Below, piece after piece: positions 35,427-54,447 of a stretch of DNA of 64,000 nucleotides. Each line of letters begins with the position of its first letter. Position 1 is the stretch's first letter. This DNA comes from Clostridium rhizosphaerae (lineage in GTDB: Bacteria > Bacillota > Clostridia > Clostridiales > Clostridiaceae), in the NCBI RefSeq assembly GCF_016765585.1, contig NZ_JAESWC010000008.1, forward strand, positions 169,279 through 233,278, given 5' to 3'. The notes beneath the pieces are model-generated. The model was not told the DNA's origin. It did not search any database and saw only the letters and a program-made list of their open reading frames with translations. Position numbers and translations under genes: made by a program.

Positions 35427-35562
35427 AAAAATTCCTCCTCTCACTGGAAAATTACTCGTTAAAGCCATTTAGGGCTTTGACTTCGCCCACGGGTCAGCCT
35501 GAACTCGCTCGTTCCCACTCGCTAGTCTGACCGTAAAAGCCCATTTATGGCTTTAACCTCAA
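35427..35562 (-). repeat. Two-hairpin leader repeat, copy A
   Basis: Read on the minus strand: GTTAAAGCC-type hairpin with TAAAT loop, a second hairpin GGTCAG...CTGACC whose loop contains GCGAGTGGGAACGAGCGAG, another AAAGCCC/GGCTTT unit, then CCAGTG and the ribosome site. Equivalent order to copies B and C. Confidence 0.7.
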
Positions 35563-35665
35563 TATGTAAAACTTTGCTATATACTTTCATATTCTTATTA
35601 TTCCTATTTTTAAGAAATATATAATTGTAAAGCAAAGGTTTGAAATCGTAAAACTACAAAATAAA

Positions 35666-35695
35666 AAGACCCACAGTTTTTACACTGAGGGCGTT
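35666..35695 (-). terminator. Terminator of the YheC/D-like gene
   Basis: GCCCTCAGT/ACTGTGGGTC imperfect stem followed by TTTTTATTTT on the minus strand, four bases after the gene. Confidence 0.7.
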
Positions 35696-35698
35696 TTG

Positions 35699-36478
35699 TT
35701 ATTTATTATTAAAATTATATGCGGAAACCGTATATAAAAGTGGAGTATAGTCTACTGATAAATAGGTTTTGTAATCTACAACAGAAAACTTTTTAAAACT
35801 ATCAAAAATATTTATTTCTACAAGCCAAAGCTTGTTTTCTTCATCAATACCTATATCAAATCCAAGTTCCTCTGAATAATTCGACGCTTCTTCAATAGCC
35901 TTGCAGGCTTTTAAACAAAGTCTATTTGCTTTATTCATGGTTTCGTTTAAATCAAAATGAAGAGGATAATAACTTTTTACCGCTTCCTTTAGATGAAATT
36001 TAAAGTTTCTATTTAGCACATTGGTAAAAACAAAATTATTTCCTGCAACACTGTATTCAATTCCTTTTAAGTTCCAATCACCTTGAGTTATTTTTTTCAT
36101 TACAAATCTAAGATCAAATAAATCTTCCTCAACCTTTGCAAGCTTAATATACTTTTGAAGTATATAATTCTTATAGTTCTCCTCTAATTTATTCAAATAA
36201 CTTTCTAAGTCTACTTCTGAAGTTAATATTGATTTTATTTTTTTCTTCCTTCTACAATCTGTAACTCTAAAATTGTCACCAAGTTTTTCGATAATACATA
36301 TATTTTTTTCACTTATATTTTGAGGCTTTAATACTATTTTTTCATATCGCTCAATAAACTCCATAAACTGTTCAAAATCCTCAAATATTTGTGCAGGTGG
36401 CAGGAACTGCGAAAGCTCTTCCCTATCACTTATAATTTCATACAGATCGTATTTAGTAACCCTATTTTTTATCCCCAT
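35699..36478 (-). CDS. YheC/YheD-like ATP-grasp protein (spore-coat-associated family)
   Basis: 259 residues resembling YheC/YheD of Bacillus: KYDLYEIISDREELSQFLPPAQIFEDFEQFMEFI, VLKPQNISEKNICIIEKLG, QKYIKLAKVEEDLFDLRFVMKK, and a C-terminal ATP-grasp metal segment EELGFDIGIDEENKLWLVEIN. These positions correspond to Lys and Asp/Glu/Asn ligands of ATP-grasp ligases. Substrate unknown; relatives are linked to spores. RBS AGGAGTGAG. Confidence 0.8.
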   Translation of the reverse strand: MGIKNRVTKYDLYEIISDREELSQFLPPAQIFEDFEQFMEFIERYEKIVLKPQNISEKNICIIEKLGDNFRVTDCRRKKKIKSILTSEVDLESYLNKLEENYKNYILQKYIKLAKVEEDLFDLRFVMKKITQGDWNLKGIEYSVAGNNFVFTNVLNRNFKFHLKEAVKSYYPLHFDLNETMNKANRLCLKACKAIEEASNYSEELGFDIGIDEENKLWLVEINIFDSFKKFSVVDYKTYLSVDYTPLLYTVSAYNFNNK

Positions 36479-36566
36479 AAGCTTTTCTCACTCCTATCTG
36501 CATTTGCTATATTCAGTTGTCTTCATTTTAGTATATGTTACTTGCATAAATTGGTGTAAAAACAAA

Positions 36567-36598
36567 AGCAATCCATCAATTAATTTTTGTGGATTGCT
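36567..36598 (-). terminator. Terminator downstream of the Met/Gln-rich protein gene
   Basis: AGCAATCCA/TGGATTGCT stem; T-rich on both strands. About 100 bases after the gene stop. Confidence 0.75.
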
Positions 36599-36696
36599 TT
36601 TTAAGTTCTAATTTATATGCTGTTTTAGTCGTGATTTAATTGTTTTGCATCTTAAAACCGAAGCCCATGGAATATACCCAGTTCTGTATGCTTTTA

Positions 36697-37314
36697 TTAA
36701 TATCCGTAGTGATTATATGGTCTTGGTCTTGGTCTTCTTCTCCTTCTTCTTCTAATAAATTCATTAAGTAAGAGAATAGAGATCAAATCCCTTACAGCTC
36801 CTCTTCTGCCATAACGAGGTAATCTCATATTTTCCTCATCTTCCGAGCCAAACTTGCCGTCTAAATCTGCTTCAACCTTATTATATACCTTGTCAGTCAT
36901 ATCTTCTATGTCTTCCATCATAGGGCACTTCTCAGTTCCATGCATATGTTCATGCATATCACAGTGCTGCTTTATATATGGCATGATAAAAATATAAATT
37001 TTGGGATACATCATCTTCATCTGTTCTTCTTCCATATCCATCATTGGCTGCTGCATCATATGTGGCTGCATTGGTTCTTCCATCATTGGCTCTTGCATCA
37101 TTGGCTGCTGTTCCATTGACTGCTGCATTGGCTGATAAAACATAGGTTCCTGCGCCAGTGGAATCTCCATTGACGGCTGTTCCATTATCGACTGTTGCAT
37201 CATAGGTTGCTGCATTGGCTGTTGCATTGGCTGTTGCATTGGCTGTTGCGTAGGTTGCTGCATCTTTCTCATCATCATGCAATTATAGCATGGCATCGAT
37301 TCATAATTATACAC
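36697..37314 (-). CDS. Met/Gln/Pro-rich repeat protein, possible spore-coat component
   Basis: 205 residues in three parts: an N-terminal Cys/Met patch (MPCYNCMMMRK), about 75 residues of QQPM/EEPM-type short repeats, a helical middle with His/Cys/Met (KQHCDMHEHMHGTEKCPMMED), and a tail of seven consecutive Arg followed by PRPRPYNHYGY. Low complexity, Tyr/Arg-rich tails and clustering near spore genes resemble coat proteins, but a metal-binding (copper) role is equally suggested by the Met/His/Cys content. GTG start with GGGGG at seven bases. The repeat DNA is a 12-base tandem unit. Confidence 0.65.
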   Translation of the reverse strand: MYNYESMPCYNCMMMRKMQQPTQQPMQQPMQQPMQQPMMQQSIMEQPSMEIPLAQEPMFYQPMQQSMEQQPMMQEPMMEEPMQPHMMQQPMMDMEEEQMKMMYPKIYIFIMPYIKQHCDMHEHMHGTEKCPMMEDIEDMTDKVYNKVEADLDGKFGSEDEENMRLPRYGRRGAVRDLISILLLNEFIRRRRRRRPRPRPYNHYGY

Positions 37315-37402
37315 ACGAAAACCCCCAAATAAAATACTCTAATTTTACACACAATATATAGTATGATGAAATTTTTCAATGTGTTACAGCTTTTTATAAA
37401 AT

Positions 37403-37436
37403 AAAATGGAGCTGTTTTCAGGACAGCCCCATTTTT
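37403..37436 (-). terminator. Terminator of the 50-aa gene
   Basis: AAATGGGGCTGT/ACAGCTCCATTT stem on the minus strand followed by TATTTTA; the arm includes the stop codon. Confidence 0.65.
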
Positions 37437-37587
37437 AATCTTCATCTTCAAGCTTTCTTCTTGCTTTATTAATATTTCTCTCATCAAGGCCTGTAGTGCT
37501 CATTATTTCGCCCATTCCTATGCCTTTATCAAGCATTTCCTTGGTGTCTTCCATAGCTACTTCATGCTTTTTCTTATCCTTATCCAT
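37435..37587 (-). CDS. Small acidic/basic protein, 50 aa
   Basis: ATG at 37587 with GGAGGT nine bases upstream; the product starts MDKDKKKHEVAMEDTKEML and ends KARRKLEDED. It is highly charged and helical with a GIGMGEIMSTTGLDERNI turn that resembles a minimal helix-turn-helix-like hairpin. Too short for common gene callers. A hairpin (37403-37436) at its stop works as a terminator. Function unknown. Confidence 0.65.
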   Translation of the reverse strand: MDKDKKKHEVAMEDTKEMLDKGIGMGEIMSTTGLDERNINKARRKLEDED

Positions 37588-37624
37588 AGAATCAGTACCT
37601 CCTATAGTTTAAACTTTTCTAAAA

Positions 37625-37652
37625 GAAAGCCTCGAAAAATTTCGAGGCTTTC
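37625..37652 (-). terminator. Terminator of the SASP gene
   Basis: Perfect GAAAGCCTCGAAA/TTTCGAGGCTTTC stem with T-rich 3' side, 13 bases after the stop. Confidence 0.85.
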
Positions 37653-37664
37653 TAATATGTTCTC

Positions 37665-37859
37665 TTATAGTCCTTTTTCGTAGGATTCAACCATTCTTTT
37701 AACCATTTGGCCGCCTACTGATCCTGCTTCTCTTGAAGTTAAATCTCCATTGTAACCTTCTTTAAGACTAACTCCTACTTCTCCTGCAGCTTCCATTTTA
37801 AATCTGTTTAAGCCTTCTTTAGCTTGTGGAACTAAAACTCTATTACTTCTGTTTGACAT
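37665..37859 (-). CDS. Alpha/beta-type small acid-soluble spore protein
   Basis: 64 residues with the family hallmarks: VLVPQAKEGLNRFKMEAAGEVGV (GPR protease region around MEAAGE) and the DNA-binding GDLTSREAGSVGGQMVKRMVESYE. It coats spore DNA and protects it from UV and heat, then is degraded at germination. RBS AAAGGAGG. Expected to be controlled by sigma-G; no promoter was assigned with certainty. Confidence 0.96.
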   Translation of the reverse strand: MSNRSNRVLVPQAKEGLNRFKMEAAGEVGVSLKEGYNGDLTSREAGSVGGQMVKRMVESYEKGL

Positions 37860-38012
37860 GTGTGTGTCCTCCTTTGTATTTAATATTTGTTTTGTTGTCC
37901 TATGGTACTAACAGTATGTGCCGTATAGAGTTTTATATTCTATGGAAGTTAAGGAATAAGTAGAAGAGGTTTCCATATTATAAAAACTTATGCAAATATG
38001 TTATTTCTAAAA

Positions 38013-38055
38013 AAATAAACTCTGCAAAAACTTGAAAGCTTTGCAGAGTTTATTT
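38013..38055 (-). terminator. Terminator of tRNA-Lys
   Basis: AAATAAACTCTGCAAA/TTTGCAGAGTTTATTT, 16 bp, followed on the minus strand by more T. The stem abuts the encoded CCA. Confidence 0.87.
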
Positions 38056-38130
38056 GGTGCACCATCAGGGATTCGAACCCGGGACCCACTGATTAAGAGT
38101 CAGTTGCTCTACCAACTGAGCTAATGGTGC
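38055..38130 (-). tRNA. tRNA-Lys (anticodon CUU), CCA encoded
   Basis: Acceptor GCACCAT/ATGGTGC, discriminator A, CCA; anticodon stem ACTGA/TCAGT enclosing CTCTTAA (anticodon CTT); T loop TTCGAAT. Confidence 0.93.
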
Positions 38131-38202
38131 ATATTAACTTGTCCAAAAATATTATATTAAATTTATTATTTAAAGTCAACTAATTTCTAGGTAAACTTTA
38201 CA

Positions 38203-38236
38203 AAAAAATTAGCCGGCAGCAAGCCAGCTAATTTTT
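38203..38236 (-). terminator. Terminator of the 97-aa protein gene
   Basis: AAAATTAGC/GCTAATTTT stem with inner GGC pairing, followed by TTTTTTTG on the minus strand; overlaps the gene stop. Confidence 0.8.
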
Positions 38237-38528
38237 ATTCTTCTTGAGGATTAAACATAGTAGTTATTAAATTATGAAAATTATTATTTGCTTTTTCACT
38301 GCTTATTCCGATAGCTGTATTAATAATATCGTTAACCTGCTCGGAATTTAAGCCTTCTATTTTCTTTGTTATAGAATCTCTTAACGGATGATCAGGCAAA
38401 TATCTGTCTATAGCTGATCTTATTCTGTCAATACTGCTGTCAGTATGTGTATCAATACCATATGCTGCAATACAATTAACAAGTTCTATAGCTTCCTTTT
38501 CTGTAAATAATCCTTTCCATGTATCCAA
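38235..38528 (-). CDS. Small helical protein of unknown function
   Basis: About 97 residues, all alpha, acidic: MDTWKGLFTEKEAIELVNCIA, then RIRSAIDRYLPDHPLRDSITKK and NDIINTAIGISSEKANNNF. TTG start at 38528 has AGGAG eight bases upstream; a GTG at 38537 would lie inside the site. No motif recognised. Confidence 0.6.
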   Translation of the reverse strand: MDTWKGLFTEKEAIELVNCIAAYGIDTHTDSSIDRIRSAIDRYLPDHPLRDSITKKIEGLNSEQVNDIINTAIGISSEKANNNFHNLITTMFNPQEE

Positions 38529-38682
38529 AAAAATCACTCCTTTTTTTCATATAGCTTTATCTTATAACCATTAAGTTTTTTTATTCATGGCATTTATTAC
38601 TACTTAAAATAAACATTCACTTTAAGGCGCGTATTTATAAATATAGTAATAAATTTTAAATTTTTTATAAGGAGATGAGAAT

Positions 38683-38952
38683 TTAGTATTAAAAGCAAAA
38701 AACAACTTAGATTCAGAGTTTCTCGACATATGGGATGATGAGGAGGACGGATTTACTGAAGGTGAAATAAATACAGACAAGGTTCTATCAACTTTCAACT
38801 TTGGAGTAAATTCAACAGCAAGCGAAAATAAATCTTTAGCTTCTATAAAAGATTATCTTAAATTTTCAAACACATTAAAAAAAGGAGTACCGCTTGATAC
38901 TCCTCAAAACTATCTCACTGAAAGATCTGTAACATTTCTTTCAGTTATCTGA
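38683..38952 (+). pseudogene. Open frame without start codon, probably decayed small gene
   Basis: A plus-strand frame with a good AAGGAG site eight bases before a TTA codon at 38683 reads 89 codons of plausible acidic protein (LDIWDDEEDGFTEGEIN...) to a TGA. It has no ATG, GTG or TTG anywhere in frame, and its last third runs through the terminator and 3' end of the opposite DUF2922 gene. A mutated start (TTG or ATG to TTA) is the simplest reading. The rest of 38529-38909 holds nothing else. Confidence 0.4.
38883..38904 (-). terminator. Terminator of the DUF2922 gene
   Basis: AGGAGTA/TACTCCT stem, then a T7 run on the minus strand. Confidence 0.85.
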
Positions 38953-39131
38953 GCTGAATGTTTAGCTATTAAATCTCCTCCGGTTGAAGAAAATATATTT
39001 CCTGCTATTATAGTATCCATAACAACAGACACTTCCTGCTGACTTATATTATCATTAACACCTGGAAGTATAATATTGGCTCTTGCGCCTTCTTCATTTA
39101 AAAAAGTCATTACTAAACTTTTATCTGCCAC
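38910..39131 (-). CDS. DUF2922 family protein
   Basis: 73 residues: MADKSLVMTFLNEEGARANIILPGVNDNISQQEVSVVMDTIIAGNIFSS, the typical DUF2922 pattern of a short beta-alpha protein. GTG start with AAAGGGGG upstream. In Firmicutes it is commonly encoded with DUF1659 and YvrJ, and both occur upstream here, DUF1659 only as a remnant. Function unknown. Its leader carries the two-hairpin repeat. Confidence 0.85.
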   Translation of the reverse strand: MADKSLVMTFLNEEGARANIILPGVNDNISQQEVSVVMDTIIAGNIFSSTGGDLIAKHSAQITERNVTDLSVR

Positions 39132-39139
39132 TTAGATTT

Positions 39140-39230
39140 CCCCCTTTCTGTTAGAATCACTGAGTAGTTTAGACCACTCACTTCCGCTCGTAAAATACTC
39201 GTTAAAGCCCATTTAGGGCTTTAACCTCCT
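39140..39230 (-). repeat. Two-hairpin leader repeat, copy B
   Basis: Minus strand: perfect GTTAAAGCCC/GGGCTTTAAC hairpin with TAAAT loop; second hairpin GAGTATTTTA/TAAACTACTC with one mismatch and loop CGAGCGGAAGTGAGTGG; then AGTG, and the ribosome site of DUF2922. Confidence 0.75.
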
Positions 39231-39249
39231 TAATCCTCGATTAGTTTAA

Positions 39250-39435
39250 TTACTGATTAACTAAAACACTTTCGTCACTTTTTCCTACACTGACAAACTC
39301 ATTCTTTAACAGGGAGCCTAAAGCTGTTCCTATTTCAAGAAGCTTGTCAGGAGCTGCTGTCACTTTTACATTTGAAAACTTTTTAGCCTTTATAATGTTC
39401 TTTCCATTTGAATCAACTACTGAATTTAAAATAAA
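39250..39435 (-). pseudogene. DUF1659 gene remnant, N-terminus missing
   Basis: The frame reads FILNSVVDSNGKNIIKAKKF, then SNVKVTAAPDKLLEIGTALGSL, the recognisable middle and end of DUF1659 proteins. It begins directly after an in-frame TAA and lacks the first 15-20 residues, a start codon and a ribosome site; the missing part is not found in other frames up to the yvrJ terminator. A deletion of the 5' end is inferred. Confidence 0.7.
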
Positions 39436-39502
39436 TTACTAAGAAATGTGTTTGGATTAGCTTTATTATAGACATAAACTTACGGTACGGCAGAATAAAA
39501 AA

Positions 39503-39554
39503 GTTGCAGCAAAATAGCATCCCTAAACGGTTTTTTAAGCTATTTTGCTGCAGC
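39503..39554 (-). terminator. Terminator of the yvrJ-like gene
   Basis: GCTGCAGCAAAATAGC/GCTATTTTGCTGCAAC stem with a 20-base loop and TTTTTTATT on the minus strand. Confidence 0.8.
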
Positions 39555-39560
39555 ACCTTT

Positions 39561-39731
39561 TTATGCGGATTTTCTATCATCATTACCGCTAAGCTTAATT
39601 GAAAGTATAGTAGAAAGCTGGTTTATTGAAGCAGCCAGGTTGTCTATTTTACTTTCAACTCTAATTAAAAGATAAGCGGCAACTGCAATTGGAAAGCCAA
39701 CATTTGCCACCGCCTTTAAAAAATCTTCCAT
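39561..39731 (-). CDS. YvrJ family small membrane protein
   Basis: 56 residues: MEDFLKAVANVGFPIAVAAYLLIRVESKIDNL, a single membrane helix followed by a charged coil, matching YvrJ (NVGFPIA signature). ATG at 39731 follows AAGGAGGGAT. Normally grouped with DUF1659 and DUF2922, as here. Function unknown. Confidence 0.87.
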   Translation of the reverse strand: MEDFLKAVANVGFPIAVAAYLLIRVESKIDNLAASINQLSTILSIKLSGNDDRKSA

Positions 39732-39838
39732 GGTATCCCTCCTTCCTGCCTTAATAACAAATATGCAGGAGAGCAAAGGATTTTGGAAGATTTAGTGGTA
39801 GAAGGTAATAAGTTTTATAATTATCTTTGAGATTTATT

Positions 39839-40285
39839 TTATTTGATTTTATTTTTTTCAAATTTAAATTTTTTATAAAGAATATCTTTTAAAACTAATA
39901 CCGTGTCCTCATCATTAAAATTAAATTCGTTTTTGCAGTCATCATACAACTTCGATAACTTTTCACAATAAGTATCTATTCCTTGCACACCTTGATAGGA
40001 AGCCAAAATCGGATATTTTTTACTCCATGCACCAGTCCAGTCAATCTCATCAACTATCATTTCGATGCTTGTAATATCACCGTTAAGATTACTTCCGCTA
40101 ATGAGATAGTCATAACTTACATTATAAAGCTTACTTAGCAATTTCACTTTAATTAACTCGGGAACTGTTTGGTCAGTTTCCCACTTGCTCACTGTTTGTC
40201 TTGATACATCTAATTTGTCAGCAACATCTTCCTGAGATAACCCAGCCTTTTTACGTAAATCTAGTAGTTTATCACCTAATGACAT
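39839..40285 (-). CDS. XRE-family transcriptional regulator
   Basis: About 148 residues. Residues 3-60 are a lambda-repressor-like helix-turn-helix (LGDKLLDLRKKAGLSQEDVADKLDVSRQTVSKWE). The C-terminal 80 residues are acidic and helical, without a peptidase or TPR motif. ATG at 40285 follows GGTGAT. It stands at the left boundary of the 40-54 kb accessory array, where a regulator of a mobile element would not be surprising, but no integrase is present. Confidence 0.85.
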   Translation of the reverse strand: MSLGDKLLDLRKKAGLSQEDVADKLDVSRQTVSKWETDQTVPELIKVKLLSKLYNVSYDYLISGSNLNGDITSIEMIVDEIDWTGAWSKKYPILASYQGVQGIDTYCEKLSKLYDDCKNEFNFNDEDTVLVLKDILYKKFKFEKNKIK

Positions 40286-40435
40286 AATGATCACCAGCCT
40301 TTCAATTATTCCAAGTTAACTTGTAGGTACAGTATACTTAAAATTGAAATAGTTTTCTACCAAGCAAAATTGGAACTTTGTCAACTAAACTTAACATCTT
40401 AATGCATTTAAGCTAATATAAATACTTTTTACTAT

Positions 40436-40510
40436 GGAATTTCTTACGATAACAACAGCTAATAAATAAATTGCCATTCCCGCAATTCCAATTACAAGAT
40501 ATTTATTAAC
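40436..40510 (-). pseudogene. Fragment of a small membrane-protein gene
   Basis: Minus-strand translation NKYLVIGIAGMAIYLLAVVIV closely parallels KKYLVMGIVGITICLLMEIFI of the intact protein encoded at 42814-43032. No start or upstream part remains. Relic of a duplicated gene in the array. Confidence 0.5.
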
Positions 40511-41330
40511 TCCATGTTACCGGATAATCCAAATGGTTTGGCAGTTTCGTATTTCTATTTCCTTTAGCAGAATTAATTTGTCCTTGTGTTAAAAAAACAG
40601 CCTCTCTTAAATCAGCATTACTAAAATTCGTATCTCTTGTATCTGCTCCTAAAAAAACTGTTCCGTCAAATATGCAACTATCAAAATTAGTTGCAATTAA
40701 TAGCTTCATGCTCAAGTCTAATCCACTCATATCTTTTTTCTTGAAGTTTCTTCCTAAGAACTCTGTTAACCTCTTATTATCACTATTCTTAAAACACTTT
40801 GTAATAGAATCACAGACTTGCTTTAAAATGATATTAACTTTATTTCTATAACTTTCAATGTCAATCTCAAGGATACATTGTGGGGTAGAATTACATAAGG
40901 CTTCATTTTCGGTAATCAAATTTTCAATATCACTCCATAATTCTTTTGCTAGAATTATTATTTTTGATTCCTCTAAAAAGTAACGTATTTGATGTAATTG
41001 AAAAATAATTATAAATATATCAAATATTTCTTTTGATTGCTCCTGTGATGTTTGCCATGTCTCACCTTTATAAATATATTGTGTTACATGTTGTCCTGCC
41101 CCAAAACAATCATATCCTATGCAACCTTTCATATTACGTTTTTCCAATTCATGATGAATATCACAACGATAATCATTTCGTAGTTTTGTACAAGGCTTGC
41201 CTGCTTTTTTATTCTCTGGAAAACCATCTATTTTTGAAAAAAATAATGCTGTACAACATAAACCACTGCATTTTGAACAATCTACTTTTAATTGCTCTAA
41301 TCTTCTCTTATTTTTTTCATGTATTTTCAT
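40506..41330 (-). CDS. YkgJ-like Cys-cluster plus pentapeptide-repeat protein
   Basis: 274 residues. The N-terminus has eight Cys in a YkgJ-like metal-chelating pattern (KVDCSKCSGLCCTALFF...GKPCTKLRNDYRCDIH...KGCIGYDCFG). A helical middle follows. The last 80 residues contain pentapeptide-repeat-like A(D/N)LxF coils (NRTNFSNADLREAVF type). This architecture suggests a cytosolic metal-cluster protein with a beta-helix; pentapeptide proteins can protect gyrase, but that role is not shown. RBS AGGAGATT. Confidence 0.75.
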   Translation of the reverse strand: MKIHEKNKRRLEQLKVDCSKCSGLCCTALFFSKIDGFPENKKAGKPCTKLRNDYRCDIHHELEKRNMKGCIGYDCFGAGQHVTQYIYKGETWQTSQEQSKEIFDIFIIIFQLHQIRYFLEESKIIILAKELWSDIENLITENEALCNSTPQCILEIDIESYRNKVNIILKQVCDSITKCFKNSDNKRLTEFLGRNFKKKDMSGLDLSMKLLIATNFDSCIFDGTVFLGADTRDTNFSNADLREAVFLTQGQINSAKGNRNTKLPNHLDYPVTWS

Positions 41331-41420
41331 ATTTTAATCTCCTCAAATTTGGATTTCAACTTAGTTTAATTACAATGTTTCGCTAAACCTAATTAGTGAA
41401 AACTATGCGAATATTATTTA

Positions 41421-41891
41421 CTATATAATTTTCTTCATCTTAATAAATTCAAATTCTCCGCCATTTGTTTTTTGCATATATTTTTCTTCAAACTGAAAGC
41501 CTATGCTCTCATATACTTTTATTGCTCGCTTATTAAAGGAAGCAACTGCCAAGGCAATGTATTTCTGGTTATAATTAAACCTTTTTACTCCAAAGTTAAT
41601 GCCTGCAGCTGCAAATTCAGTTCCTATTTTTCTTCCTGTTAATTCAGGTTTCAAACCAAGACCTATCCACATGATTTCATCTTCAAAGAAAAATGAATAA
41701 AATCCTACCAGTTCATTACTATCATTAAGAACTGCGAAATATTGATCTGTCCAACTATTTTCATTAAGAATTTCATCTAAATCTTCTTCATCTTCTGTCA
41801 TGTCATAGAATGAATAAACGCCATCATACTTCCAATTATACGCAATTTCATTGGCATAATCTTTGTTCATAGGTATAAAATTATACTGCAT
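41421..41891 (-). CDS. GNAT-family N-acetyltransferase
   Basis: 156 residues with the GNAT order: N-terminal strand-helix, VGFYSFFFEDEIMWIGLGLKPELTGRKIGTEFAAAGINFG (motif A, acetyl-CoA pyrophosphate loop LTGRKIG), and AVASFNKRAIKVYESIGFQFEEKY (motif B). Substrate unknown. It belongs to the spaced, co-oriented accessory array; both flanking gaps are AT-rich. Confidence 0.88.
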   Translation of the reverse strand: MQYNFIPMNKDYANEIAYNWKYDGVYSFYDMTEDEEDLDEILNENSWTDQYFAVLNDSNELVGFYSFFFEDEIMWIGLGLKPELTGRKIGTEFAAAGINFGVKRFNYNQKYIALAVASFNKRAIKVYESIGFQFEEKYMQKTNGGEFEFIKMKKII

Positions 41892-42012
41892 TGATTTCCC
41901 CCTATTTAGCTACAATATTATGCTTTTTTACTTTAAAATATTTACAAAAACATATATATCAAAAAACTCGGATACATATATTTGATAATAAAAATCTGTC
42001 TTAATCCTTATG

Positions 42013-42159: not shown

Positions 42160-42232
42160 ATTATAGTCCTCCTTTTTACTATGTTAAATTAATATAAAAT
42201 TATTGATTAAATCCCCAAAGCAATATTCTTAA

Positions 42233-42718: not shown

Positions 42719-42813
42719 AACAGCTCACCCCTTTACTTTAGTCATATCCTGCCATTTCAACAGTTAAAGACAAGAACATTTTTTAACTTTTTTAATTTAT
42801 AGATCAATTAACA

Positions 42814-47308: not shown

Positions 47309-47326
47309 ATCAATCTCTCTTTCATC

Positions 47327-47803: not shown

Positions 47804-47851
47804 TTTATCCCCTTTAATATTTCAGAGCATTATTTATTAACCTTTATATAT

Positions 47852-48355
47852 CTACTTATTATCTATATCTATATAATAAAACTTGTTTTCGTGCCACTTA
47901 ATAAACTTTTCCAAGTCTTTATAAGAAACACTTATTGTCGCTGTATTTACATTGGGGTGGAAATTTACTATACTCTTATCAGTCAACTCTCTATCAATTA
48001 GAACAATTACCTTTCTATCAATATCGTTTATTAAACCAAAAGGGCTAACAGAACCCGGTTTTAGTCCCAAGTATTTATGTAATCTTTCTTCGGAAGCAAA
48101 GGATAAACTTGTACTTCCTATTTGTTTAGACAATAATTTTAAATCCATATGTTTTGTTTCATCTAAAATTGCAAGATAGTGTAAATCACCTTTTCTATTT
48201 CTTAAAAAAAGATTTTTACAGTGCTGTCCCGGGATACGTATATCCAATTTGCTTGCTTCCTCAACAGTAAATACTGCTTTATGTTCATTTCTAATATAAT
48301 TAATCCCTAATAAATTTAAAATATCATATAGTTTTTTCTCTTTTGCGTTAATCAA
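47852..48355 (-). CDS. YbaK/ProX-type aminoacyl-tRNA editing protein
   Basis: 167 residues matching the free-standing editing domain: KAVFTVEEASKLDIRIPGQHCKNLFLRNRKGDLHYLAILDETKHMDLKLLSKQI, KYLGLKPGSVSPFGLINDIDRKV and VNFHPNVNTATISVSYKDLEKFI. The PGSVSPFGL and HPN elements mark the ProX/PrdX class that hydrolyses Ala-tRNA(Pro). TTG start with GGAG at seven bases. Confidence 0.9.
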   Translation of the reverse strand: MINAKEKKLYDILNLLGINYIRNEHKAVFTVEEASKLDIRIPGQHCKNLFLRNRKGDLHYLAILDETKHMDLKLLSKQIGSTSLSFASEERLHKYLGLKPGSVSPFGLINDIDRKVIVLIDRELTDKSIVNFHPNVNTATISVSYKDLEKFIKWHENKFYYIDIDNK

Positions 48356-48396
48356 TTTTCAACTCCAAGTCAAATATTAAAATGTAATTACTATTA

Positions 48397-48675
48397 CTAT
48401 CCTATATACGCAGTCTTAAGAAGCCTAAACATTTCATCGCTAAATCCATACTGTTTCTCATTCTTACTCGATATACAAGCCCTTTGATACATATTAAGAA
48501 ATTCAATAGGATCTCCAACTACTTTTCCTAAAATTTCATCTCCCATCGTACTGCTTATAGTTTTTGCTAAAAAGTATCCAATAACATGAAATCTCACATC
48601 TTCACTAAGAAATTGAACCAGTTCGTCTGATGTCTTTTTTCCTTTAAGAACATCTGTTAACGAATATAAACTTTC
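48397..48675 (-). pseudogene. C-terminal fragment of an unidentified protein (possibly zinc-peptidase-like)
   Basis: The frame is open from an in-frame TGA at 48676-48678 and reads ESLYSLTDVLKGKKTSDELV through RFHVIGYFLAKTISSTMGDEILGKVVGDPIEFLNMY to AYIG. The GYxxAKTI...GDPxEFxxxY pattern is like the end of DUF5700/DUF2268-type peptidases. No start or ribosome site is seen; coding-like sequence continues upstream in a different frame (ALEKLEKVLRKGGENL), so a frameshift and truncation are inferred. Confidence 0.5.
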
Positions 48676-48793
48676 TCAAGTTTTCCCCACCCTTTCTTAA
48701 AACCTTCTCCAATTTTTCTAATGCATTAAATACACTTGTAAATGAAGTCCATATTCTAATCCCCAAAAATAAACATTCCTATTGTCTGATTTT

Positions 48794-49723
48794 TTACCAC
48801 TTATGAATGATATCTGGTTTTGCGAAAATTTCATCAAGCCTTTTTAGAAAGGGAATAATGGAACTAAAATCAACGGCTCTATGGTCAAATGCCAAACACA
48901 TAGGAAGAATTTTTCTTATACCAATTTCTTTATTTCCATTTTCATTTACATATATGCCAGGCCGCTCTTGAACTGATCCGAGACCGATAGCAAGAACCTG
49001 TGGTGGTATAATTTCAAGCAGTGCAAAGAAGCCCCTCTGTTGTTTGTATAAAGAACCTATATTGGACACAGTCACAGTGCCTGACATAATATCTTTTTCA
49101 GTCAAACGCTCATTTTCTGGTATTTTATAATAATCTTCTTTTTCCTTACCTTTACGCCTCCTCACCTTATGTCGGGTAACTTGAGAAGCAATAATTCTTC
49201 TCAGTATACTTAAATGAAATTTCTTTAATTCATTAACAGCGTCATCAAAGGCTGCTCTATATAGCATTTCATCAACATTTGTTTTTTCTATTCTCTTGGA
49301 TAGATTTAAAATATAATCAGAAATATCATTTAACGACATTTTACCAGCATTAGGGATAGATGGAGTTATCATTTTACCATCGGGTAAAAGCCATGGTATT
49401 GAAACATTTATTTCACCTAAAATGTGTGTCATCCCTTCGGCTTTCTTGTGATTATACTCTACATAAGAATTCAAATCAGGTGCTACTAGCAGCCCCTCAA
49501 CAATAACTTTAATCATTACAGTATTAAATGTAATCTTGAAACCTGTATTTTTTCTTTCTTTGGCAAGCTGTATAAATTCACTATAAAAGTCAGTTATATC
49601 AGGCTCATATACATATGATACATGTGGCACACTCTTCCATGAAGTCGAAGTCATATGTGCGACCACTCTTCTTTGCAAGTTAAACCTTTCAGATTTTCTT
49701 ATTCTAATTTTTTTATCAGGCAT
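48794..49723 (-). CDS. Stand-alone 2-oxoacid dehydrogenase E2 acyltransferase catalytic domain
   Basis: 309 residues, only the chloramphenicol-acetyltransferase-like E2 core: RVVAHMTSTSWKSVPHVSYVYEPDITDF, TFNTVMIKVIVEGLLVAPDLNSYV, EINVSIPWLLPDGKMITPSIPNA, GTVTVSNIGSLYKQQRGFFALLEIIPPQVLAIGLG and CLAFDHRAVDF. The catalytic His and Asp of the HxxxD(G) motif are present but the Gly is Phe. No lipoyl or E1/E3-binding domain and no E1/E3 genes nearby, so classical complex function is unlikely. An acyl- or amide-transfer role is inferred. Confidence 0.82.
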   Translation of the reverse strand: MPDKKIRIRKSERFNLQRRVVAHMTSTSWKSVPHVSYVYEPDITDFYSEFIQLAKERKNTGFKITFNTVMIKVIVEGLLVAPDLNSYVEYNHKKAEGMTHILGEINVSIPWLLPDGKMITPSIPNAGKMSLNDISDYILNLSKRIEKTNVDEMLYRAAFDDAVNELKKFHLSILRRIIASQVTRHKVRRRKGKEKEDYYKIPENERLTEKDIMSGTVTVSNIGSLYKQQRGFFALLEIIPPQVLAIGLGSVQERPGIYVNENGNKEIGIRKILPMCLAFDHRAVDFSSIIPFLKRLDEIFAKPDIIHKW

Positions 49724-49992
49724 GAATTCGCTCCCTATTACTTATATTTACAATTTCTAATATATTCTCCAAGTCTTAATATGTATATTATATTTTTCTT
49801 TTATTTTCATAATGCGGCCCTATTTCATCTGATTATATAATTAGCATTATCCTATATAACTTCACAAATAAAGTTTACGTAACAAATAAAGAAGCAGATA
49901 ATTGATTCATAATTAGTTACTATGATAATCAATCCATATACCTGAATTAAAGCATCTCATAAGAAAGTTGTAAGTTAATGTTTTTTTATTAA

Positions 49993-50090
49993 GCACGGGA
50001 AATACGGAGAACACTGAATACGCTGAAGGGGATATTTTATAAAACACTCTCTTCCGTATCTTCTGCGTTCTCTTTCTTTTCTTTCGCGTT
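49993..50090. repeat. Imperfect inverted repeat in a 1.1-kb gene-poor stretch
   Basis: GGAAATACGGAGAAC...GAATACGC on the left is roughly complementary to TTCCGTATCTTCTGCGTTCTC on the right. The whole 49724-50295 interval is AT-rich and shows no supported gene. Confidence 0.4.
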
Positions 50091-50295
50091 TAAATAATTC
50101 TTTTTACTGCATCTTATCTCACAATTACTCAATTATCATATATCATAACTAATGTTTATTTCTGAGAATCTCTAAGTAATACCCAATCTCTTCCTGTAAG
50201 TTAATAATTCAATTATATATTTTATGGATAATTTTGTATATAGGTAATAGATTCTGCTTTCACCATCATTCTCTAGCAAATACCTAATCAATATA

Positions 50296-50654
50296 TTCCG
50301 TGATGATGATTTTGTTATAGTATATGGTATCAATCACAAACGAGCCGGAAAAGCAATTTATTCAAATGCAAGCTTTTACGAGGTAGAGCTTCTCAATGGA
50401 GTTGCCGGGGCCTTCAGTACAGGGATACTGCTCTTCAATACTTCCCTGAAAGATATGAAAACGCAGGCTACTATTATGTATATAAAATTGCAAGGAAAGC
50501 TGATGAAGACAATGTTGTTATCATCCCTTACAGCACAGGGAACCATCTTGGGAGCTGCTACGGAGTCGATAATAACCAGAACGTTCGTATAGTCTTTAGA
50601 GTTTATTTGGATCAATTAACTATGGTTGGCCCCTATATTTTTGATGTCATCTAG
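50296..50654 (+). pseudogene. Frameshifted C-terminal gene remnant
   Basis: One frame reads FRDDDFVIVYGINHKRAGKA followed by NASFYEVELLNGVAGA; at about 50405-50420 it must shift to the frame giving LQYRDTALQYFPERYENAGYYYVYKIARKADEDNVVIIPYSTGNHLGSCYGV and ending FDVI at TAG. The two segments form one coherent protein. No start found upstream. The family is not recognised; composition suggests an exported protein. Confidence 0.55.
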
Positions 50655-50829
50655 GATCGTGTACTCCTTTTTAAAAGAAAGAAAAAACTTGAGCTTAATA
50701 GAAATAATTAATAACAGCAGAAAACCTGCTTTTAGATATATTGGTAAAACATACTTGATTCTTTCGTTTTAACTAAATTATAATAGAAATATTGTATTAC
50801 ATTTTACTTTAGGAAAGGGGTGAATTTCT

Positions 50830-51321
50830 ATGTCATACTTATTTTTAGGACTTAGTTTACTAATAGGATTATTATTAATAGTTTCAAGAAGTGTTTTTTA
50901 CAGGTATTATGATAAAATTAATTTCAATATTAAAAAGTCATTGGATAAAATGCTGAGAATTATTTATTTTGCACCCGTAATAGTTTTATTTATAATCCTT
51001 ATATTAACCTTTACCTATTTTAAATCAAAGGGTTTTATTAGACTATCGCATGCATGGCTTGTAGTTAATTTTTGGGTAGGTAGCGTTATATTTTATTATA
51101 TCGCCATTGAAACAGCAAAAATACAAAAATTAGTTATACTGCTGCCTGTTGCGGGAATGGTAATATCTATGTTTGCTGCAATATACTTAACGCCTCTGCA
51201 GCACTATGAAAGCGTGTTTTATAATATTAATATAATGATTCCAAATGTTTTTGGATTGATTATGTTAATAACATCCTATTATACAAATCATAAGCTTTTG
51301 ACAAAAGAAGCTAAGAAATAA
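50830..51321 (+). CDS. Predicted membrane protein, about five helices
   Basis: 163 residues: SYLFLGLSLLIGLLLIVSRSVF, IIYFAPVIVLFIILILTFTYF, HAWLVVNFWVGSVIFYYIA, LVILLPVAGMVISMFAAIYL and NVFGLIMLITSYYTN are hydrophobic. Start ATG after GGAAAGGGGTG. The plus orientation is opposite to most neighbours. No family assigned. Confidence 0.65.
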   Translation: MSYLFLGLSLLIGLLLIVSRSVFYRYYDKINFNIKKSLDKMLRIIYFAPVIVLFIILILTFTYFKSKGFIRLSHAWLVVNFWVGSVIFYYIAIETAKIQKLVILLPVAGMVISMFAAIYLTPLQHYESVFYNINIMIPNVFGLIMLITSYYTNHKLLTKEAKK

Positions 51322-51538
51322 TTTATTTTACGTTTCGAGTAAAATCGGACAACCTTGCTAGGATTAAACCATCTTATTACAACGCAATCTTGAATATATT
51401 TCATGAACTCCTGAACCTTTTGCTTATCATCCACCGCGTAAAATCATATGTCCAAGATATACAAAATCAGTTTTTTGCATTATAATGTAAAATATAGATT
51501 ATTAAGGTTTTACCTATGGAATTGAAAGGAGCTTTATT

Positions 51539-51745
51539 ATGGAGGAATTAAAAAACATTTTGAGGAAATTCGCTGAATCCGGATGGGATTTAATTGCTAT
51601 TCCGTCAGAAGCTTATCTTGATGGAAATGGAACGAAAGAAGATTTAATAAGCGCAATTGAGCAGGCAGACAAAGAGTGCGGAAGCTGCGGCTGTGAATTC
51701 GATCCCCTCTATAAAAGATGCCTTGAGCTTAAAGCGTTACTATAG
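51539..51745 (+). CDS. Small soluble protein with Cys triplet
   Basis: 68 residues, acidic and helical, with ADKECGSCGCEFDPLYKRCLELKALL near the C-terminus; the CxxCxC pattern may bind metal. ATG after GAAAGGAG at good spacing. A terminator follows directly. Unknown function. Confidence 0.68.
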   Translation: MEELKNILRKFAESGWDLIAIPSEAYLDGNGTKEDLISAIEQADKECGSCGCEFDPLYKRCLELKALL

Positions 51746-51770
51746 TCTGAAACTTTTTCTTATATAGGTA

Positions 51771-51803
51771 TATTAGGCATATCATATATACCTATATTTT
51801 TTA
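51771..51803 (+). terminator. Terminator of the 68-aa gene
   Basis: ATATAGGTATAT/ATATACCTATAT stem and a T6 run. Confidence 0.75.
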
Positions 51804-51872
51804 TTTATTATTTATATATAGTATAATGTTAACAGTTTTAAATTTATTCAAAACTCTTTGATGACAAAATAA

Positions 51873-51910
51873 AAACACCGTAGAATTCATGATTGAATGA
51901 TACGGTGTCT
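51873..51910 (-). terminator. Terminator of the 67-aa membrane-protein gene
   Basis: AACACCGTA/TACGGTGT stem with inner TTCAT/ATGAA pairing; followed on the minus strand by TTTTATTTTG. Confidence 0.8.
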
Positions 51911-51954
51911 TACGTGAGCTCTTTCTCTTTTTCTGCTAATCCTTCACTATCCTT

Positions 51955-52158
51955 TTATCTGTCTTTCATCTTTTTAATTCCCAAAGATATAGACATTATA
52001 GATAGACCAATACATACAATAGCTAAACATATGTAAGTACTTCCAAATGGTTTTTTATTAATAAAATAATTTCTTGAAATCACGGCATTCAGTATAGCTG
52101 CAATTAACCACATTACTCCTGATACAAAAAATAAATAACCAGCATATTTTTTATTCAT
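51955..52158 (-). CDS. Small two-helix membrane protein
   Basis: About 67 residues: MNKKYAGYLFFVSGVMWLIAAILNAVI, then FGSTYICLAIVCIGLSIMSISLGIKKMKDR. ATG at 52158 follows GGAAAGGAT; the start at 52179 has none. Unknown function; array member. Confidence 0.65.
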   Translation of the reverse strand: MNKKYAGYLFFVSGVMWLIAAILNAVISRNYFINKKPFGSTYICLAIVCIGLSIMSISLGIKKMKDR

Positions 52159-52359
52159 TAAAGTATCCTTTCCACACAATACACTATTTTTTTCTTATAT
52201 AAATATATAATGGTACCTTTAGTCATATTATTAAGTTTGCAAATTATAGATTCAATTACAATTGTTTGGTATTTGTTTATTGTGCTGCTCTAACCTATAA
52301 AAAAGATTAATGAATCTCATAAGAAAATTATCACCTAACCCGCTACCCATACTATATTA

Positions 52360-52707
52360 TTATTTAGGAAAACTCCTAAAGTATATATGGTTACCATCTG
52401 GGTCGCAAAAGTGCACATTCTTTGCTCCCCATGGTTGTAGTTTGGGAGGATCAATAATATGTATTCCTAATTTCAATAATCTTTTATATTCTTCATCTAC
52501 ATCATCAACAGTAAAAGCTACGCTAATATTCTGGTTTTGATTATTTTTTACTTCTCCATTATTGTAGATACTTAGAGTTATAACATCTTCAATAATAGAC
52601 TGATGCACTTCGTCTCTACAATCCGAGTAAATATTTAAGATATTTCTATAAAAATCCGCCATTTTTACTACGTCATTTGTTTCTAAACAAATTTCTCCTA
52701 ACTTCAT
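52360..52707 (-). CDS. VOC-family (glyoxalase/bleomycin-resistance fold) protein
   Basis: About 115 residues: MKLGEICLETNDVVKMADFYRNIL, ISVAFTVDDVDEEYKRLLKLGIHIIDPPKLQPWGAKNVHFCDPDGNHIYFRSF. The DPDGN turn and final strand are diagnostic. Metal-dependent lyase, dioxygenase or drug-binding functions occur in the family; not resolvable here. ATG at 52707 with GGAAAGGAAG upstream. Confidence 0.88.
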   Translation of the reverse strand: MKLGEICLETNDVVKMADFYRNILNIYSDCRDEVHQSIIEDVITLSIYNNGEVKNNQNQNISVAFTVDDVDEEYKRLLKLGIHIIDPPKLQPWGAKNVHFCDPDGNHIYFRSFPK

Positions 52708-52812
52708 TTTTTTCTTCCTTTCCAATGGGTTTATATAAAATCTTAGTTCACAATTAATTACAATCTAATATTAATTGTTTAGACATTTTTCTACACAAAT
52801 TAAAACACAACC

Positions 52813-53259
52813 TTATTTTTCATTTACTTCGATTAAGAAATAATATATTCCTAGACCTTCATCATAGTCGGCTGAAATACTAAATAAATATTTACCTGGC
52901 TTATCGGGTGTAATAAAAGTTCCGTTTGTGCTTTCATTTGAGTCAAATATTTTTTCATAATTACCATTCTCAAGCCTTTTAAAAAGTGAATAATGCAAAT
53001 ATTCATGATTAAATATAATTTTTAGTTCCGTATTAGGCTGGACTGATGTTAATTTTGTATTTATTAATTCGTTATCAACATCAATGTGGAAATTGCGCCT
53101 GCGTTTAAGAAAATCACTATAAATAAAGTCTGTTTTGAAAGTAGGAATTTCAACAGTAGGACACCTTACTATTGGATTATCTATTTGCGGAATAACACCA
53201 ACTCTTACCGCAAAGTTAATAATCAATATCAAACAAAGTACAGATATTACTAACCACAA
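52813..53259 (-). CDS. Membrane-anchored extracytoplasmic protein of unknown function
   Basis: About 148 residues: one N-terminal helix (WLVISVLCLILIINFAVRV) and an external beta-rich domain ending GKYLFSISADYDEGLGIYYFLIEVNEK, suggestive of a small beta-sandwich. The listed TTG start lacks proper spacing. An in-frame ATT at 53277, eight bases after AGGGGG, would add ISNKKV and may be the real, non-canonical start. Confidence 0.6.
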   Translation of the reverse strand: MWLVISVLCLILIINFAVRVGVIPQIDNPIVRCPTVEIPTFKTDFIYSDFLKRRRNFHIDVDNELINTKLTSVQPNTELKIIFNHEYLHYSLFKRLENGNYEKIFDSNESTNGTFITPDKPGKYLFSISADYDEGLGIYYFLIEVNEK

Positions 53260-53416
53260 TACCTTTTTATTGCTAATCGTTCCCGCCCCCTATGATTATT
53301 TGCATAAACTATTTTTATAATTGATTCACCATATTCTGCAAATATGAATCACCTGATTGCTGAATATCTACCTTAAATGCCTCATAACTTTGAATTCATA
53401 ACGCTAAATTTTTTTA

Positions 53417-53668
53417 TTAAACACTCTTCATTAATTCAATTTGAAATTTTATTTCTTTTCTTACTTCCTCTAAATCTTTAGGATACATTAAATTTATTAA
53501 AGTTATTTCATACTCTGATGCTATCAACGCATGTCTCTTAACGTGAGATGTCTTTTTTGCTTTTACTTTCAAACACTGCAATAAGTTCATCTTATAATTC
53601 GGGAATATCATCAATTTTTCTTATATTCCTACGTTACTCATATTACTAGTTTCTTTCTTATTTCTCAT
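53417..53668 (-). pseudogene. Small gene with an in-frame stop
   Basis: ATG at 53668 after AAAGAGGTG reads MRNKKETSNMSNVGI, then TAA, then continues in the same frame with EKLMIFPNYKMNLLQC and AKKTSHVKRHALIASEYEITLINLMYPKDLEEV to a stop. The second part alone (from 53614) has no ribosome site. A nonsense mutation in an 83-residue gene is the simplest explanation. Unknown family. Confidence 0.45.
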
Positions 53669-53783
53669 AATTGCACCTCTTTGAATTTCTGTTTGTACAT
53701 CAGTCATAAAATGTAAACAGTCTTTGTTTTACATTTTATTTATATGACTAAAGTGAATCTATATCTAAAAAACTCATTAACTA

Positions 53784-54134
53784 TTATTTTCTTATTCCAT
53801 CCTTATCGAATAACTTTCTTAAATGTATTTCTGTAAATATGATACTTGCTATAAAAAGAATAACCAAGCCTAATATTGATATACTTTTCGATAAATTTAC
53901 GTTATTAGTATATAAATACCTGATTAATATTGAGAAGGGTATAAAAATAATACCGCTAAATAAAAGCATTCTTCCACATAAACGATTTCCTTCACACCAG
54001 GTGTCCTTATTCTTCATAGAAAAAGGTGTTTTATACCCAATGCTATTATTTATATGTTCGGGTGGATATGTTCTTAATATGAGTCCAATTATAGCTACAA
54101 ATGCCCCGGTTATACAACTTGTTAAAATCCCCAT
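53784..54134 (-). CDS. SdpI/YhfL-family-like membrane protein
   Basis: 116 residues, three helices, with NNSIGYKTPFSMKNKDTWCEGNRLCGRMLLFSG, the SdpI-type GYRTPxSMKNxxTWxxxxRxxG motif. SdpI is the immunity protein and signal receptor for toxin SdpC; many members have no known partner. No SdpC gene is nearby. RBS GGAGGGG. Confidence 0.83.
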   Translation of the reverse strand: MGILTSCITGAFVAIIGLILRTYPPEHINNSIGYKTPFSMKNKDTWCEGNRLCGRMLLFSGIIFIPFSILIRYLYTNNVNLSKSISILGLVILFIASIIFTEIHLRKLFDKDGIRK

Positions 54135-54354
54135 AATTCCCCTCCATTTTGTTTCATATTGTTATACAATTCAAAATTACATTCCAACTAAATCATACCA
54201 TATTTTTGAAACTAATACACTAATATACTTATCAAAGCAATAGCCATCATTTCTAATAATTAATAAGCTCAAACTTAAAAATTCACAAGAAGCTTTTACA
54301 ATACAACTTGGAGAAAATGATTTAAGAAGATATAATATAATAAAAAATGTAAAG

Positions 54355-54428
54355 GAGGTTGAAGTCTTAAATGGACTTCAACGGGTAACTTATGAGCGAA
54401 GCGAATGTTTTAAGTTACCCAGTGTTCC
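54355..54428 (+). repeat. Two-hairpin leader repeat, copy C
   Basis: Plus strand: GTTGAAGTC/GACTTCAAC hairpin with TTAAATG loop, then perfect GGGTAACTTA/TAAGTTACCC hairpin with loop GAGCGAAGCGAATG, then AGTG and GAAGGGAG of the next gene. The rest of the 54135-54447 gap is AT-rich promoter-like DNA. Confidence 0.78.
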
Positions 54429-54447
54429 GAATGAAGGGAGAAATAAA

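Follow-up and report, generated by a model that had tools for sequence, protein, structure and literature searches.

The window analysed here, a 64,000-nt stretch of the Clostridium rhizosphaerae genome, contains three 5' leaders of one family (Table 1). The two-hairpin unit is about 85 nt long: hairpin 1 with a TAAAT loop is followed by hairpin 2 with a GAG..GAG loop, CAGTG and a tail usually ending in AAAGGAG. An earlier note on this DNA had located the three leaders, and all three were found again in the sequence and by the covariance model R1, which at E up to 1 finds nothing else in the window. R1 was built from eight copies, among them the two window copies scoring 98.5 and 98.4 bits; the third scored 46.2 bits (E 6.6e-12). 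The order given earlier, hairpin 1, hairpin 2, AGTG and ribosome site, holds for the copies at 54352-54441 and 39231-39141. It does not hold for the irregular copy at 35563-35427, where a full unit (35563-35481) is followed by an isolated hairpin-1-like stretch, CCAGTG and the Shine-Dalgarno sequence (SD). The downstream genes had been listed in an order other than that of the coordinates: the copy at 35427 precedes a 102-aa ORF without Pfam match, the one at 39140 a DUF2922 gene (PF11148, E 3.2e-22) and the one at 54428 a flavin-reductase-like gene (Pfam, E 5e-8).

Table 1. Features of the three repeat copies in the window.
Feature	Position	Strand	Evidence
Complete SD-type element before flavin-reductase-like gene (start 54448)	54352..54441	+	R1 98.5 bits, E 5.1e-28; Pfam
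5' flanking GGAG, presumed relic of original SD and target	54354..54357	+	Sequence; GGAG in 61/97 non-tandem 5' flanks
Hairpin 1, 10-bp stem, TAAAT loop	54358..54382	+	Sequence, alignment
Hairpin 2, 10-bp stem; GAGCGAAGCGAA in loop with 2-bp mini-helix	54383..54420	+	Sequence, alignment
AGTG and tail TTCCGAATGAAGGGAG, presumed current SD, 7 nt 5' of ATG	54421..54440	+	Sequence
Complete SD-type element before DUF2922 gene (GTG start 39131)	39141..39231	-	R1 98.4 bits, E 5.6e-28; PF11148
Hairpin 1 of DUF2922-gene copy	39201..39225	-	Sequence
Hairpin 2 of DUF2922-gene copy	39162..39200	-	Sequence
AGTG and tail of DUF2922-gene copy, AAAGGGGG at end (presumed SD)	39140..39161	-	Sequence
Diverged unit: hairpin 1, hairpin 2, CCGTG, short GCGAAG-ending tail	35481..35563	-	R1 46.2 bits, E 6.6e-12
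Partial second unit: hairpin-1-like stretch, CGAGTAATTTTCCAGTG, SD GAGGAGG before ATG 35426	35427..35480	-	Sequence

Stem covariation of the repeat family is strong. The earlier observation that stems differ between copies while pairing is kept was borne out by an alignment of 99 copies, in which 95.7% of pair cells are paired and 353 double changes were counted, compared with 110 +/- 9 in shuffles and with 28 and 42 when partners were slid by one column. The structure is commoner than expected by chance: when 464 kb were scanned for it without the tail, there were 19 matches, of which 13 were judged by eye to be family members, and one match in the block-shuffled control; this tail-free scan is strict and lets two of the window's three copies escape. 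According to folding of 97 sites, the mean unpaired probability of the SD is 0.42 in the filled and 0.52 in the joined empty leader, so that SD accessibility is predicted to be only slightly lower with the repeat. Sequestration of the SD by the tail was dropped because of this small difference.

The home genome holds at least 151 R1 matches, a lower bound obtained with 150 of 725 candidates scored, and the loci examined in it comprise 156 elements at 125 sites. Arrays of two to four called copies, all on the same strand, are present at 27 of these sites, and nested copies exist, in which one copy lies inside another after CGAG. The cores are diverse, with 152 distinct 66-nt cores among the 156 elements and only 35 of 11476 ungapped core pairs at least 95% identical. 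Because of this diversity, recent mobility is doubtful. In the family survey 30 of 146 genomes carry the repeat in a patchy distribution. Of 391 genomes in the class-wide search, with only 11 candidates scored per genome, the home genome alone was positive; G024 and G037, which have weak matches in the family survey, also came out empty. Plasmid and phage collections, each searched with one copy as query, gave no match.

The repeats are placed in sense direction at SD-like sequence. At 118 of the 125 home-genome sites, sense arrays end at the SD of a start codon (by reading). At 94 sites no more than 14 nt separate the last called element from a start codon; at 24 further sites, also by reading, the last unit of the array reaches SD and start. 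These 24 are nine composite sites, twelve with a further element next, L193 (an upstream piece of an already counted array), L240, whose array ends before a start at 1241, and the window copy at 35427. As controls, 562 of 20000 random positions precede a start, as do 393 of 1915 (20.5%) GGAG[AG] motifs elsewhere in these loci, coding motifs included. R1 contains the SD tail and therefore favours copies at SDs in these counts; the tail-free scan, the sole test free of that bias and a small one, places 7 of 9 arrays at the SD. Random placement, which the earlier note had held to be the outcome against its motif, is thus not what we found. Its description of leaders directly before the ribosome site is right about the 5' UTR, but the favoured position is the SD itself, for which the repeat brings a replacement.

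In G041 all 20 sites are at the SD, and in other genomes a start lies within 14 nt in 33 of the 45 copies listed, leaving out L145, a 34th by script, which sits in what looks like a tRNA. Exceptions in G000 are L242, L086, L185, L090 and two weak matches in L080, together with L236, which precedes only a 23-codon frame; elsewhere they amount to 5 of 16 stretches in G003 (L310 being ambiguous) and 3 of 3 in G034. Some non-SD copies lie in or near RNA genes and several inside other repeats. In other genomes, L071 and L145 interrupt what by eye is tRNA-like sequence, with no tRNA called across either, and L072 interrupts truncated 5S rRNA-like sequence (35.3 bits, where the gathering score is 38).

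For seven conserved genes, which we take from their protein sequences to be recR, mnmG, thyA, asnS, metG, deoD and sucB, 16 orthologous leaders lack the repeat. The leader of metG is filled in G003 and empty in G000, G001 and G002; recR, asnS and mnmG are filled in G000 with three empty relatives each, and deoD, thyA and sucB have two, one and one empty relatives. We left out pepV since its best matches in G002 (45%) and G003 (62%) may be paralogues. In metG, recR and deoD the empty leader shows one GGAG and the filled leader GGAG at both sides of the repeat. The empty relatives of mnmG have no GGAG, and the filled leaders of asnS and sucB have none at the upstream end.

Among 97 non-tandem 5' flanks, GGAG was found in 61, a final G in 89 and GTAG in none; 15 of the 125 sites, with no clear TAAAT-type loop, were excluded from this table. 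Identity between flank and tail is 0.91 at -1, 0.71 at -4 and 0.37 at -7 (82 sites), falling off outside GGAG rather than extending as in a target-site duplication of MITE type. Further out the 5' flank varies whereas the tail is constant, so there appears to be no target-site duplication beyond GGAG; judging from these flanks, GGAG alone could still have been duplicated. The element ends, GTTAAAG... and ...AAAGGAG by eye, are not the terminal inverted repeats of a MITE of a DDE transposase.

Taken together, the leaders are copies of one two-hairpin repeat family that is likely mobile and probably inserts in sense after GGAG, with AAAGGAG as the presumed new SD. The repeat is best read as REP-like and probably mobile, not as a regulon RNA. 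The earlier note had offered three options, and its REP-like mobile palindrome preferring 5' UTRs fits best once the SD is put in as the position. A copy would insert directly 3' of a GGAG, most often the SD of a gene, and its own 3' end would then take over as SD. The folded strand would be recognised by a putative nuclease or transposase, by analogy most simply through a single-strand mechanism as in IS200/IS605 and REP transposases, and selection would purge copies landing inside genes. We infer that insertion produced the filled sites, rather than loss the empty ones in relatives; movement itself was not observed. Selection may have contributed to the placement at SDs as much as any preference of the enzyme.

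Such selection could even act alone, if insertion were untargeted and purifying selection spared copies only where the rebuilt SD makes them harmless. The non-SD copies, several of them within other repeats, and the 36 of 97 flanks that are not GGAG point in this direction. However, SD-free intergenic places should be harmless too, yet nearly all home-genome sites are at SDs, and GGAG is the 5' flank in most cases, so that we consider untargeted insertion rather doubtful.

The repeat could also be a true REP that depends for its movement on the RAYT (a Y1 transposase) of its genome, as REPs and REPINs do. This would agree with a hairpin directly 3' of a tetranucleotide, here GGAG, with the lack of a long target-site duplication and with the home genus, where Y1 genes occur where the repeats are and none was found in G002. 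Counted by eye, 21 of 30 carriers have a RAYT homologue (E up to 1e-50), as against 39 of 116 non-carriers (Fisher p 7e-4; the 21 include one fragment, G053, and one gene with stops, G129), but this association may be phylogenetic. For any Y1 gene the contrast is 28 of 30 against 93 of 116 (p 0.11), with none found in carrier G007 and G135 missing from the positives listed. Moreover, a different inverted repeat, GGGACGGTTAA, flanks 24 of 30 RAYT loci, and none of the 30 has an R1 match nearby at E up to 0.1. Presence tables and flanks thus give no support for RAYT as the cognate mover, and we regard this explanation as unlikely.

Other candidate movers fared no better. For a partner of IS200/IS605 type, there was no match at Y1 loci, and no gene-carrying version in the loci examined: among 200 left halves none had only a distant right half, 177 being closed within 170 nt and 23 being without a passing match. 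Matches to IS91/Y2 number four in G000 and one in G003, with a broken one in G001 and none in G002, a promising pattern within the genus; the best R1 score in seven IS91 loci was 10.2 bits (E 0.64, not significant). An IS91/Y2 mover was rejected, as six carriers (G034, G041, G115, G129, G007 and G135) gave no match and the ends look unrelated.

A conserved cis-regulatory RNA selected gene by gene, either a regulon leader or an mRNA-stabilising 5' structure, would account for the sense orientation in the 5' UTR, the stem covariation and the presence of a copy at the same gene in five congeneric species (L053, L056, L059, L064, L065). However, no evident link joins the downstream genes and the congeners' orthologues lack the leader, and for these two reasons we reject a regulon RNA. 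Arrays and nesting also speak against it, as does the comparison with Rfam 15, in which none of the three leaders reached the gathering score of a family and L009 1300-1620 had no match up to E 1. Selection on a sense RNA predicts an excess of G.T over A.C mismatches, but the two main stems show 59 and 40 (p 0.07), no clear excess. The regulatory RNA motif suggested earlier is therefore improbable, although an effect of the repeat on mRNA stability is possible. Mobility at the RNA level, with insertion of the folded RNA into transcripts at GGAG and return to DNA through a reverse transcriptase, would fit the sense orientation and the copies in tRNA-like and 5S rRNA-like sequence, but is highly improbable with no RVT_1 match in five carriers (G001, G003, G007, G105, G135), and reverse transcriptase was rejected as mover.

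Bacterial repeats normally persist by avoiding genes. The probably mobile, REP-like family described here appears to persist by landing on a short motif before genes and replacing that motif, and if so, one repeat family could occupy the region of translation initiation in about a hundred genes. We tentatively put forward, as a conjecture rather than an expectation, a mobile Shine-Dalgarno: a folded repeat with a putative dedicated enzyme that targets ribosome-binding sites, inserts in sense and supplies the gene with a new site of this kind. In one genome, translation of a large set of genes would then begin at a transposon-supplied signal, and the tRNA-like and 5S insertions would imply entry into transcribed, single-stranded DNA. 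It becomes possible to test what moves such repeats, whether transposition can target an SD and whether translation rates across the genome are reset by mobile hairpins. The case also cautions against taking every covarying 5' leader common to many genes for a riboswitch or the mark of a regulon.

Among the records listed in full-text literature searches, no title or abstract opening names an SD-targeting repeat. The pneumococcal BOX, RUP and SPRITE elements are, in the available parts of their description, likewise small interspersed repeats for which strong RNA structure is predicted and of which some are transcribed in 5' regions (PMC3049150). That description sets them apart from the clostridial repeat, as they are commoner between convergent genes and BOX and RUP have terminal inverted repeats and target-site duplications; its sole mention of Shine-Dalgarno sequences concerns BOX-encoded ORFs without good candidates. 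In the E. coli REP system, GTAG 5' of the hairpin is described as crucial for cleavage, and guide tetranucleotides 5' of palindromes are also described for the IS200/IS605 type, as far as the accessible text goes (PMC8266576). REPs and REPINs with their RAYT resemble the clostridial repeat in the short hairpin beside a conserved tetranucleotide, the extragenic position and the high copy number. The clostridial repeat differs in having GGAG instead of GTAG, two dissimilar hairpins in fixed order, head-to-tail arrays, sense placement at gene starts with the SD at its 3' end, and no RAYT with matching flanks. Members of the IS200/IS605 family have subterminal hairpins and insert 3' of a short motif without target-site duplication. 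Compared with their non-autonomous derivatives, the clostridial repeat lacks a gene-carrying version in the loci examined and a Y1 gene in carrier G007, but it shares with them the subterminal hairpins, the presumed insertion without target-site duplication and the short motif 5' of the insertion.

The three two-hairpin leaders described in the earlier note proved to be members of one family; the observation is confirmed and extends well past what was stated there. R1, a covariance model built from eight copies with the Shine-Dalgarno (SD) tail included, gave exactly three matches in the window, which are these leaders. In the home genome (4.85 Mb) we counted at least 151 R1 matches with E-values down to 1.6e-29, a lower bound because scoring covered 150 of the 725 first-look candidates. 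A 464-kb sample (one 400-kb block plus the window) contained 18 matches with E-values of 0.1 or less, which extrapolates to about 190 copies per genome. The unit, roughly 85 nt long, has this order: a GGAG flank, hairpin 1 (GTTAAAGTCC-TAAAT-GGACTTTAAC and variants), hairpin 2 (e.g. GGGTAACTTA...TAAGTTACCC, with a GAG..GAG loop enclosing a 2-bp mini-helix) and CAGTG. Most copies continue into a tail, for example TTTCGAGTGAAAGGAG or CTTCCGACTAAAAGGAG. No family matching the element was found in Rfam. We consider it likely that the element is mobile, inserting after a GGAG, which is usually an SD, and supplying its own tail as the new SD.

After removal of duplicates the home-genome stretches contained 156 elements at 125 sites. 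At 94 sites the start codon of an ORF lies no more than 14 nt past the last called element, and the remaining 31 sites were inspected individually. Nine hold composite copies, in which the outer hairpin-2 half and its tail come next, and at 12 one further element precedes the start. Locus L193 is the upstream part of an array counted elsewhere in the tally, L240 has more nested units between called element and start, and the copy at 35427 of the window is separated from its start by a lone hairpin. In total 118 of 125 sites end at a start (94 by script, 24 by reading). L236 adjoins only a 23-codon frame, and six sites are misfits (L242, L086, L185, L090 and two weak matches in L080). The same strict test was passed by 562 of 20000 random positions and by 393 of the 1915 GGAG[AG] motifs that lie outside elements, both strands counted; the copies are not placed at random relative to genes. 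Because R1 includes the tail, we also searched the 464 kb for pairs of adjacent hairpins having a TAAAT-type loop, demanding neither tail nor GGAG. It returned 13 family members in 9 arrays and six unrelated matches, and 7 of the 9 arrays end at a start codon (the plus strand of L094 was assessed by separate reading). In G041, a genome of another genus, 20 of 20 sites fit this placement, one via a following element. G003, a congener of the home genome, fits in 10 of 16 stretches and also at three loci examined before them (L039, L041, L043), and genome G034 in 0 of 3. Of 45 copies from genomes other than the home genome, 33 have a start within 14 nt.

Orthologous leaders were located in four congeners with a chimera of eight conserved proteins. 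The metG leader carries the element (is filled) in G003 and lacks it (is empty) in the home genome (G000), G001 and G002. The recR, asnS and mnmG leaders are filled in G000 and empty in all three others. G000 is also the filled genome for deoD, whose empty leaders are those of G002 and G003, and for thyA and sucB, which have a single empty relative apiece. The search for empty sites suggested previously thus yielded 16 empty leaders at seven genes. In the empty leaders of metG, recR and deoD, GGAG occurs once ahead of the start; the filled leaders show it at their upstream end and again as part of the element, there about as far from the start as the original one. For asnS and sucB the relatives carry GGAG, and at the upstream end the filled asnS leader shows TGAT and the filled sucB leader AAAG. 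The filled thyA leader has GGAG upstream, its relative AAGGATG, and the mnmG relatives lack GGAG. As GGAG at both ends together with GGAG in empty relatives is found in only three of the seven filled leaders, our confidence in the proposed explanation is slightly lowered. It is possible that the differences reflect loss rather than gain. The sucB and mnmG arrays lie closely downstream of the apparent stop of the preceding gene and are therefore probably within operons. Folding of 97 leaders predicted a small decrease in SD accessibility, with a mean unpaired probability of 0.42 in filled versus 0.52 in joined empty leaders (p 0.005).

Covariation of the stems, which the earlier note had proposed to check, was strong. 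Among 99 copies aligned to R1, double changes occurred in 17 of 22 pairs, with 353 cells changed on both sides versus 110 +/- 9 in shuffles. Standard pairs made up 95.7% of pair cells, a percentage biased in favor of the structure to which the alignment was fitted; pairing is nevertheless plain from the discrete stem types and from controls with the structure slid by one column, which left 28 and 42 double-changed cells. In 161 distinct rows the two stems contained 59 G.T versus 40 A.C mismatches (p 0.07), a count that disregards the innermost hairpin-2 pair, at which G.T prevails (93 to 0). Selection on the sense strand is therefore not clearly visible in the stems. The mini-helix showed 20 G.T versus 1 A.C. 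The covariation could alternatively arise if palindromes are corrected as double-stranded DNA.

Of 97 non-tandem 5' flanks, 61 end in GGAG and 89 in G. The tail hardly varies (AAAGGAG) and the outer flank bases do, so that any duplication would be confined to GGAG. Nested copies begin after CGAG and finish in short tails such as CCCGAAG, and in G003 the core is embedded in five copies of a palindromic repeat of about 290 nt, which resumes directly after CAGTG. From these two arrangements the moving core probably comprises both hairpins plus CAGTG; the successful subfamily would be defined by the SD tail. A recurring composite with one copy nested in another's hairpin-2 loop was seen at L001, L003, L004, L005, L007, L094 and L096, the last lacking the outer 5' half. 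The G003 repeat, with the hairpin pair at its center, is located at about 880–1170 of L312, L314, L316, L317 and L319; another long palindromic repeat centered on the pair occurs in the home genome (L086 16600–16900, L185 500–850).

Element relatives were also observed interrupting or adjoining 5S rRNA sequence and tRNA-like sequence (Ala-like and Phe-like by eye). The 5S start is duplicated in L067 and L073, ahead of the 5S called by Rfam. CRISPR repeats lie near a tail-less copy in G034 (L066 15–1103).

Element relatives at tRNA-like or 5S sequence, and a further leader of the window
Feature	Sequence	Position	Strand	Remark
T-box leader	window	15194–15418		ahead of 811-aa ORF at 15460; 140 bits
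Element relative	L071	1–126		
Element relative	L072	1501–1680	minus	
Element relative	L145	199–440		
Element relative	L067	90–364		
Element relative	L073	120–392		

With at most 29 candidates scored per genome, the element matched 30 of 146 genomes of the home genome's taxonomic family at E up to 1e-6, from 17 of 46 genera. High copy number is confined to a few of these carriers. Among the matches listed, the carriers include Clostridium magnum, C. carboxidivorans, C. drakei, C. thailandense, C. lacusfryxellense and Clostridium sp. OS1-26. A class survey of 391 genomes at low sensitivity matched the home genome only, and the plasmid and phage records searched contained no match. A copy is retained at one gene across five congeneric species (L053, L056, L059, L064, L065), compatible with neutrality or a useful role.

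Among candidate movers, the home-genome Y1 transposase is a RAYT-like protein of 322 aa, and relatives at E up to 1e-50, tallied by eye, are present in 21 of 30 carriers versus 39 of 116 other genomes (p 7e-4). A role as mover is not supported, as inverted GGGACGGTTAA repeats bracket 24 of 30 RAYT-like loci and the element none of the 30. Such bracketed clostridial genes can be seen at L046, L044 and in the set L246–L275, and the repeats are probably their own REP-like ends. Any Y1 gene occurs in 28 of 30 carriers versus 93 of 116 others (p 0.11); carrier G007 has none, and carrier G135 is not among the Y1 positives in the matches listed. IS91 tracks the element within the genus but not outside, and its ends differ from the element. 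An IS91-like element in L276 (1560–3576) has a candidate tyrosine recombinase gene immediately ahead of its Y2 transposase. Reverse transcriptases are absent from five carriers. We therefore name none of these as the mover. Movement by a single-strand mechanism would be the simplest fit to the orientation, the lack of a long duplication and the hairpins adjoining the junction.

The earlier reading of the leaders as REP-like was correct in kind. The GGGACGGTTAA repeat includes CGTC on one strand and may be related to the CGTC-tagged repeats of PMC3733652. The element itself is a repeat located on Shine-Dalgarno sequences, which it probably replaces.
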